Of a DNA stretch of 64,000 bases, positions 18,183 through 20,218 are shown one piece after another (the stretch's first letter is position 1; every line of letters starts with the position of its first letter). The position numbers and the translations under genes were made by a program. The notes below the pieces were generated by a model. That model made no database searches. It saw nothing but the letters and a program-made list of their open reading frames with translations, and was not told where the DNA came from. The stretch is taken from the NCBI RefSeq assembly GCF_002982115.1, contig NZ_CP019980.1, positions 814,001 through 878,000 of the forward strand. Direction: 5' to 3'. Source of the DNA: Lysinibacillus sphaericus. GTDB lineage: Bacteria > Bacillota > Bacilli > Bacillales_A > Planococcaceae.

Positions 18183-18743
18183 TTATCCTTTTACAGTTGA
18201 ACGTTCTTCTAACGTGTCAAAGGAATCACGGAAGTGTTGAAATGAGCGTTCAAAAATATCGATAAAGTCTTCACCATAAATATTACGAATAACAGCCATC
18301 ACATCTAAAAATTCCGGGAAGCGACCATATAAGTCTTTTAACGCTAACGAGCCCTCAAGTACAGAATGATATGTGTTATGATAATTGCTATTCATTTCAA
18401 TAATAAGGTCTGTCCCTGTTTCAGTGAGCTCTACATAAGTATTACGTTTGTCATCATCACGTTTCGAAAACTTTAGTAATCCACGTTCTTCTAGTTTTTT
18501 AGAGAAGTTAAAAGCGGTTGAAACGTGCATTACGCCAAATTTTGCTACATCTGAAATGGAAGCCCCTTTTAAATGATAGGAAATCCACAGTATATGGTGC
18601 TCGTTAATGTTTAGATCATAAGGTTTAATCCACTGTTGCCAATCTTTTTCAACTGCTTTCCATAAGGCCTTTGATAACTGTGCAATTCTTTGACTGTAAA
18701 GCATCGCTTCTTTTTGCGTGTATAATTCCTCTGACAAAGCCAT
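18183..18743 (-). CDS. hpr: Transition-state regulator ScoC (Hpr), MarR family
   Basis: A 186-residue winged-helix regulator. The segments [26 protein letters not shown] and [15 protein letters not shown], and the recognition region [20 protein letters not shown], are nearly those of B. subtilis ScoC, which represses extracellular protease, sporulation and peptide transport genes during the transition to stationary phase. The C-terminal portion carries the [14 protein letters not shown] dimer segment. ATG 18743 is used; a GTG directly before it is possible. Monocistronic, with its own terminator. Confidence 0.94.
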
Positions 18744-18899
18744 CACCTGCTGCTTTCTTTAACGTTTTAAAATTATTATAGCAATAAAGAAAAAAAGTTT
18801 AAAGTTAGAAAAATTAAAAAATTGAAAAGTGGTTAAAAAATAATATTTTGATGATTATTTTTGGTAAAAAAACGTGATTTTATTTCGGTTTATGAAACT

Positions 18900-19502: not shown

Positions 19503-20039
19503 TTATAGAGCTTGTGAAATTGCCGTGTTGAATTTAGAGCGTTTCACTAATTTTGCAACGATTGGATAGATAATCACAAAGGCTACAACGTTAAATGCAA
19601 CAGCTGGTATGACAACACCAACAAATAACATTGTGAATGTTGCGCCAACGTTTGCGTTAAACACAAAGAGGGCAACGGATAAAAAGACTGTACCTGATAA
19701 AATGGTACCTAACCCAACTAAAATAGCTGATACAGCAAAATGACTCACGACTTTTTTCAGCACGACCAGTATTGCTAAAAACGCAAATCCAGTAACTGCT
19801 TTATCAATAATATTTGGGATAAAGCCTGCTGGGAAAGTTGTAAACAAACCGGATAGTACCCCTGTTGACAAGGAAAGTAAAAACGTTTCTTTTATTGTAG
19901 GGAACAATAAAATACCGATAAACATCATTGTTAACATGAAGTCAGGTTTCATGCCATTAACCATACCTGGTGTGACCACATAAAGGGCAGCACCGACACC
20001 AACTAAGAGTGCCATTAACACTAAATTTTTTGTATTCAT
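19503..20039 (-). CDS. trpP: Tryptophan transporter TrpP
   Basis: A 178-residue integral membrane protein with about five or six spans, matching the TrpP (YhaG) family in length and in the motifs VTPGMVNGMKPDFMLTMMFIGILLFPT and TFPAGFIPNIIDKAVTGF. It takes up tryptophan. The genomic place between yhaH and hit is the same as in B. subtilis. The ribosome site GAGGAGAG is embedded in a string of NAG triplets that reads as a TRAP binding site, pointing to translational repression when tryptophan is plentiful. Confidence 0.93.
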   Translation of the reverse strand: MNTKNLVLMALLVGVGAALYVVTPGMVNGMKPDFMLTMMFIGILLFPTIKETFLLSLSTGVLSGLFTTFPAGFIPNIIDKAVTGFAFLAILVVLKKVVSHFAVSAILVGLGTILSGTVFLSVALFVFNANVGATFTMLFVGVVIPAVAFNVVAFVIIYPIVAKLVKRSKFNTAISQAL

Positions 20040-20041
20040 TT

Positions 20042-20069
20042 CTAATCTCTCCTCAACTATGCTAATCTA
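20042..20069 (-). promoter_or_regulatory. TRAP binding site overlapping the trpP ribosome site
   Basis: Reading toward the start codon on the minus strand, six triplets (UAG, UAG, UAG, GAG, GAG, UAG) are each separated by exactly two bases, and the last ends two bases before the ATG. Two more UAG/GAG triplets lie farther upstream at wider spacing (20078-20080, 20088-20090). The Shine-Dalgarno lies inside the array. In B. subtilis TRAP represses trpP translation by covering such an array; the presence of mtrB in this genome is inferred. Confidence 0.8.
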
Positions 20070-20218
20070 GTTGTTTCCTAACGTGTCCTCTTGACCGTTA
20101 GCGAAACTTATTAGTGATTGTACGCTAAAATTGTTCGTTTGACAATAGCGTTCCATGTCCAATTGTAACCAGCATTCATGTATGCAAATTGTTTGCGTGC
20201 CTGGCACCAAAGAATGCA

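Follow-up and report, generated by a model that had tools for sequence, protein, structure and literature searches.

A (G/U)AG triplet array over the trpP ribosome site and a conserved 5' hairpin: a putative two-part TRAP target in Lysinibacillus sphaericus and its relatives

The leader of trpP, the tryptophan transporter gene of Lysinibacillus sphaericus, carries six (G/U)AG triplets at exact two-nucleotide spacing over its Shine-Dalgarno sequence, preceded by a hairpin that is conserved among relatives, and we propose that the two form one target of the RNA-binding protein TRAP. The window, the whole stretch of 64,000 nucleotides of DNA that was analysed, was compared with trpP leaders from the same family (Planococcaceae), from Bacillus and related genera, and from outside the class. 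The array by itself is of a known type, as in B. subtilis trpP, and alone would add one more species to textbook biology. The hairpin is important for its single unpaired bases, conserved on the model target of TRAP translation control, and because it sits on that target its role is directly testable in B. subtilis. A further feature, the presence of arrays beside Trp T-boxes in a genome where anti-TRAP was not found, suggests another way of joining the sensing of free tryptophan to that of charged tRNA. We give about even odds to the reading as a whole, namely that trpP mRNAs of Bacillus, related genera and the window's family, the B. subtilis group included, carry a second TRAP element, a hairpin whose loop shows (G/U)AG, whose bulged A is nearly invariant and which would nucleate or complete the TRAP ring on a short array, and that the family stacks TRAP arrays and T-boxes on trp mRNAs, replacing the anti-TRAP relay in the window's genome.

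The array RNA reads, 5' to 3', UAG AU UAG CA UAG UU GAG GA GAG AU UAG, and the minus-strand DNA from 20069 to 20037 reads TAG-AT-TAG-CA-TAG-TT-GAG-GA-GAG-AT-TAG-AA-ATG (Table 1). A preliminary description of this DNA had reported six exactly spaced triplets covering the Shine-Dalgarno and ending two bases before the ATG, and its coordinates are borne out on the minus strand. It had also noted two further triplets upstream; both are real, but they are parts of the hairpin and not of the array, one sitting in its loop and the other in the 3' strand of its stem, which leaves six triplets in strict phase at trpP. The array covers the Shine-Dalgarno of a tryptophan-related gene, and its spacing falls in the 2-3 nt range between (G/U)AG triplets of TRAP targets that block ribosome-binding sites. 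When all 72 nt of the leader are folded together, part of the array pairs weakly in another, short hairpin. The promoter-like site is weak alone, since one was found where 0.5 such sites are expected in shuffles; relatives show -10-like boxes at the same place, as judged by eye, and the transcript is predicted to start from this site a few nucleotides 5' of the hairpin, which itself begins 10 nt past where the -10-like box stops, with 3 nt separating its own last base from the first triplet. Downstream of trpP, past a YtxH-like ORF, lies an ORF for a MarR-type regulator of the Hpr type (18183-18746, minus strand; NCBIfam equivalog Hpr, 310.5 bits, cut-off 153).

Table 1. Features of the trpP locus, in window coordinates.
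Feature	Position	Strand	Basis
trpP, tryptophan transporter, 178 aa	19503..20039	minus	PF17099, E 9.1e-40, 136.6 bits, cut-off 27.2
trpP start codon ATG, 2 nt past the last triplet	20037..20039	minus	sequence
Putative TRAP array, six (G/U)AG triplets with exact 2-nt spacers (20067-69, 20062-64, 20057-59, 20052-54, 20047-49, 20042-44)	20042..20069	minus	sequence, shuffles, in-phase conservation
Shine-Dalgarno-like GAGGAGAG, array triplets 4 and 5	20047..20054	minus	sequence
5' hairpin, P1/P2/P3	20073..20107	minus	fold, covariation, RNAalifold, template fits
GAG in the hairpin loop, proposed extra TRAP contact	20088..20090	minus	loop-end conservation
Bulged A between P3 and P2, 3' side, nearly invariant	20084	minus	A in 110/111 family leaders
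TAG triplet in the 3' stem strand of the hairpin	20078-80	minus	sequence
Promoter-like TTGTCA-17-TACAAT, upstream of the hairpin	20117..20145	minus	10/12 consensus matches

Conservation of the array was followed in 111 family leaders, those of 110 relatives and the window's own, drawn from the 176 genomes of the family in which TrpP was matched. All leaders are samples, partly picked by best TrpP score, and the counts run over related sequences and are inflated by kinship. Chains of at least three exactly spaced triplets are present in 99/111 family leaders, against 3.6% of shuffles, and the longest chain has 2, 3, 4, 5 or 6 triplets in 12, 36, 14, 33 and 16 of them, respectively. When triplets upstream of the Shine-Dalgarno were counted in the 99 distinct family stretches, 182 stood in phase with the Shine-Dalgarno triplet, and the four remaining phases held 45, 50, 16 and 14 (mononucleotide-shuffled mean 22.4, SD 4.4). 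The set from Bacillus and related genera held 80 loci, of which L351 was incomplete and B. subtilis itself was absent; among the 79 counted, a chain of at least three was found in 78 (shuffles 4.7%) and of at least four in 67 (shuffles 0.4%). The triplet spacing, whose comparison across related trpP leaders had been suggested as a check, is kept in both groups. Neither outcome named beforehand as refuting the TRAP reading, a genome lacking mtrB or triplets lost in close relatives, is seen. The outside-class control comprised 25 trpP leaders, from best matches only. A T-box lies upstream of trpP in 8/25, its position judged from coordinates, and chains there do not exceed two triplets; the other 17 include 13 with chains of 3 to 8 triplets and four (L364, L368, L373, L381) with neither element. 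A T-box and a chain of at least three triplets never occur together in these 25 leaders (L364-L388).

The array implied an mtrB gene elsewhere, and the genome (4.68 Mb, one contig) does encode TRAP, as a single match above cut-off (PF02081, E 2.2e-38) that is also an NCBIfam MtrB equivalog (138 bits, cut-off 117) and, by our reading, stands directly downstream of a folE-like ORF. When aligned with a solved MtrB chain its HHSEKLD and KIRG stretches, which we take to carry the RNA-binding Lys/Arg residues of TRAP, are unchanged. Within the family, TRAP is present in all 200 sampled genomes, and for this reason presence and absence are uninformative there; 176/200 have a TrpP match, 169 of them above cut-off. 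In a class-wide sample of 200 genomes, TRAP occurs in 146 and TrpP in 27, one of these by a match below cut-off, and 27/27 also have TRAP (Fisher p 1.2e-4), a comparison of genomes that are not independent because the window's family supplies 15 of the 27. The search that had been proposed for mtrB and anti-TRAP together recovered only the first: anti-TRAP (rtpA; PF15777) gave 0 matches at E <= 0.001 in the window's genome, and the same search was positive in 4/14 control genomes, B. subtilis included. A second, weak TrpP match in the genome (C1:708022) was rejected as ThiT (TIGR02357, 160.7 bits), and an array is absent there.

The hairpin is built from P1 (GUUUC/GAAAC), a bulged G at 20102, P2 (CUAACG/CGUUAG), the bulged A, P3 (GUC/GAC) and the loop AAGAG at 20088-20092, and its predicted folding energy is -16.1 kcal/mol (z -5.4). 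We aligned 95 of the 99 distinct family segments with MAFFT and no structure input (alignment A1). Four were left out as poorly placed in early scans, L026, which appears well placed after rescanning, and L095, L114 and L116, which fit worse. In A1, 94.3% of cells are paired against a shuffled mean of 76.4, a percentage slightly flattered because the three worse-fitting segments were left out, and one for which the structure itself was read from the same sequences. Two-sided changes occur in 13/15 pairs and total 252 cells, where shuffling gives 78.5 on average; pairing falls to 39-48% if the partner column is shifted by one to three positions. Of the 15 pairs the outermost is weak, being unformed in 46/95 sequences; RNAalifold, given the same alignment, returns the same hairpin with 14 pairs. 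Covariation supports the hairpin, and a conserved hairpin at the predicted 5' end of the transcript, just before the array, is what is expected of a TRAP 5' stem-loop. The loop finishes with the triplet GAG or UAG in 101/111 family leaders. We found no description of a trpP 5' hairpin in the titles, abstract openings and passages of the open-licence literature available to us.

Outside the family, 9 of 11 TrpP leaders score at least 13/14 on a hairpin template, with 0/200 shuffles as good for each; the exceptions are L182, which scores 11 (6/200 shuffles), and L183, which fails. Two additional family leaders divide, with L201 scoring 14 and L200 failing. The 79 leaders from Bacillus and related genera, which may share species with these 11, score at least 12/14 in 74 cases and 14/14 in 58, scores reached by 0.46% and 0% of 1975 shuffles, and 66 of the 74 fitting hairpins have (G/U)AG within the loop. 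Carriers include B. spizizenii (L289, of the B. subtilis group), B. tequilensis, B. halotolerans and B. velezensis, as well as Priestia, Metabacillus, Cytobacillus and Rossellomorea. Below 12/14 are two Parageobacillus leaders (L340 and L345), Thermolongibacillus L341, Anoxybacillus rupiensis L343 and B. atrophaeus L291, the last of which has the hairpin and scores 11 owing to a P1 mismatch. The thermophile-type leaders L340, L341, L343 and L345 keep the triplets and lack a good hairpin, and Anoxybacillus L336 and L342 have one; Parageobacillus thermantarcticus L345 has an exact chain of eight triplets, which perhaps compensates for the missing hairpin. None of the 25 outside-class leaders reaches 12/14 (best 11).

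A search with a hairpin model, R1, matched trpP alone at E <= 10 in the window's genome, where 150/867 candidates were scored, and gave no match at the other array loci. A filtered R1 search of 17 genomes matched the trpP leader in 6, and an unfiltered search or the template finds more: run unfiltered over 15 loci, R1 recovered the site in 6 at E <= 0.05 and in another 4 at E 0.09-0.65; L179, L180 and L183 were missed. Alignment A2, which contains one false match, enters none of the counts. No Rfam family reached gathering score in the trpP leader L062 or in 15 further trpP leaders (L284, L289, L305, L317, L333, L340, L345, L066, L094, L131, L007, L030, L102, L176 and L181).

The hairpin probably belongs to the same TRAP target as the array, and we read it as a trpP version of the TRAP 5' stem-loop whose loop triplet would touch TRAP, a contact to which we give somewhat better than even odds. 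Interaction of TRAP with the 5' stem-loop is required for attenuation of the B. subtilis trp operon (title of Du et al. 2000, cited in PMC3913778). Leaders of the trp operon offer a parallel within the present data. In the family they carry a separate covarying 5' hairpin, seen in an alignment (A3) of 42 of 46 distinct segments (L174, L175, L248 and L252 being out as misplaced or unclear), in which pairing is complete (100% of cells) across the 7 pairs of the upper stem, 6 of them with two-sided changes, and reaches 79.4% of cells in the 3-pair lower stem. The loop of this hairpin reads GGAG in 38/49 scanned leaders, and a further 6 have GAG or UAG as its last bases. Among B. subtilis-like trp leaders, the 5' hairpin loops of L220 (AGGAGU) and L251 (AAGAGU) hold GAG, by eye; that of L221 is ACAG, which is not (G/U)AG. 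On the strength of these loop sequences, trpP and trp operon leaders both show a hairpin-loop triplet near the array.

Two other functions for the hairpin need to be weighed. The stronger of them, which we nevertheless consider unlikely, is that it has no relation to TRAP and serves at the 5' end either to shield the mRNA against RNases or to hold the leader accessible to ribosomes. Hairpins at 5' ends that stabilise mRNAs do occur in B. subtilis, and the hairpin here is stable, stands at the predicted 5' end, and is matched by R1 in the window's genome at trpP only. Its unpaired letters are nonetheless conserved, both the bulged A and the GAG or UAG at the loop end, while the stems covary, and a plain protective stem has no need of conserved bulge and loop letters. 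That the hairpin controls trpP separately by binding something else, as a small riboswitch would or as a site for CsrA or a different protein, appears decidedly improbable. Conservation of the bulge and loop would suit such a site, and some loops read A-N-G-A-G-G-A, close to the CsrA/RsmE consensus as given in the portion of PMC4347634 available to us; against this, the GGA part is not conserved, many alignment rows reading ANGAGUGC, and the scanned trpP leaders are without Rfam matches at gathering score. CsrA or another RNA-binding protein at the hairpin was rejected on account of the non-conserved GGA.

Returning to the array, its placement and conserved phase together with the TRAP gene lead us to assign a probability of roughly 0.85 to its being a TRAP site that blocks ribosome loading, with binding and repression carried over from B. 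subtilis. With tryptophan plentiful, the 11-subunit TRAP ring would wrap the trpP leader by way of the six triplets; TRAP lying over the Shine-Dalgarno would keep ribosomes from loading, and less tryptophan transporter would be made. When tryptophan drops, TRAP would release the leader and trpP would be translated. The strict array at trpP, at six triplets, is shorter than usual TRAP sites, for which 9-11 repeats are quoted (PMC4347634, as available in part), and the hairpin could help TRAP to land on it. Termination or pausing of transcription, in place of ribosome blocking, is a very unlikely way for TRAP to act on trpP: TRAP-caused termination without an attenuator is possible in B. subtilis trp leaders, according to the accessible text of PMC3913778, but a scan found no terminator-like site between the promoter-like site and the ATG, and the array sits on the Shine-Dalgarno itself.

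A six-triplet chain arose in 0/20,000 dinucleotide shuffles of the 60-nt leader (the longest chain, of five, appeared in 3 shuffles), in agreement with the earlier judgement that chance was unlikely, and chains of five or six were absent from 300 Markov-1 copies of the 64-kb minus strand. Chance, in the form of a purine-rich Shine-Dalgarno region resembling an array, has a negligible probability: GAGGAG is itself Shine-Dalgarno-like and yields two triplets free of cost, but the phase count restricted to triplets upstream of it gives 182 against 22.4 expected, and exact 5-triplet arrays occur at just two places in the genome, trpP and the trp operon leader, both Trp loci, with none for the reversed pattern. 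At four triplets the exact scan gave 11 matches at 7 places and the reversed-pattern control 5 matches. Four of the seven are Trp loci, namely trpP, the trpEDCFBA leader, trpE-trpG and trpB. The remaining three were discarded as TRAP targets, being at chance level and within the reversed control; L273 lies inside an ORF, and L277 and L279 fall outside the listed same-strand open frames. The prediction that this organism uses TRAP to control tryptophan uptake thus gains support from mtrB, from the conserved phase and from the concentration of arrays at Trp loci.

Three of these loci, trpEDCFBA, trpE-trpG and the second trpB, have Trp T-boxes (RF00230) beside their triplet arrays, and in all three T-boxes UGG occupies the specifier position, as located by comparison with the Rfam consensus. 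In the trpEDCFBA leader the genome's second 5-triplet array stands directly before the T-box; at trpE-trpG the T-box (151.7 bits) is followed by a 4-triplet chain ending just upstream of the Shine-Dalgarno; and at the second trpB the T-box (116.7 bits) is followed by a 4-triplet chain over the Shine-Dalgarno. The pairing recurs in the family, where trpE-type T-box leaders have a chain of at least three in 48/49 and of at least four in 41/49 (shuffles 4.7% and 0.3%); 49 of 56 such leaders were counted, seven being set aside because the T-box core was not found by pattern or was incomplete, and 27 of the 49 come from the window's genus. Leaders L237, L239, L249, L267 and L218 have triplet chains at the trpE Shine-Dalgarno downstream of the T-box, besides or replacing the 5' array.

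Since anti-TRAP was not found, it is probably the T-boxes that sense uncharged tRNA in the window's genome, reading it in cis. The three biosynthetic loci would then read free tryptophan through TRAP and uncharged tRNA-Trp through the T-box, both in cis and without anti-TRAP. TRAP on the 5' array could also add a stop of its own ahead of the T-box, because attenuator-free termination by TRAP is possible in B. subtilis (PMC3913778, in the part available). The stacking of a TRAP array and a T-box was not found described in titles, abstract openings and available passages of the open-licence literature.

Several details of these loci stand apart from the regulatory argument. The product of the first trp operon gene (L282:668-2032, G000:C1) is TrpE-like but divergent: it scores 252.9 bits, below the cut-off of 517.7, and by eye its C-terminal motif is altered. 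The gene for a canonical TrpE (579.5 bits) lies at another locus, together with trpG. The second trpB (L280:1268-2699, G000:C1 near 4185301) has its own Trp T-box and its 4-triplet chain on the Shine-Dalgarno, and upstream of it a PreQ1 riboswitch (L280:598-642, 55.6 bits) precedes an ORF for a small membrane-protein-like product.

The system most like the one proposed here is trpP (yhaG) of B. subtilis, where TRAP blocks translation (Sarsero 2000; Yakhnin 2004, via the available parts of PMC11255114 and PMC4347634) from a site in the translation initiation region (PMC11255114, same part). Gene, protein and a triplet array in the translation initiation region are the same in both; the window has six exact triplets, and a 5' hairpin is absent from the published trpP descriptions in the portions available, yet species of the B. 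subtilis group, such as B. spizizenii (L289), have array and 5' hairpin as in the window. The stem-loop of the B. subtilis trp operon has a larger asymmetric internal loop between its lower and upper stems. The trpP hairpin resembles that of trpEDCFBA in standing at the 5' end upstream of triplets, and differs from it in belonging to a translation-control target and in replacing the larger asymmetric internal loop with single bulged G and A bases and a tip stem of 3 bp. For T-boxes, tandem copies on trpE have been described (PMC4342826, available in part), and the legend of Figure 5 in PMC2494555, the part consulted, marks the presence of TRAP beside T-box control; compared with described Trp T-box leaders, the T-boxes here adjoin triplet arrays.
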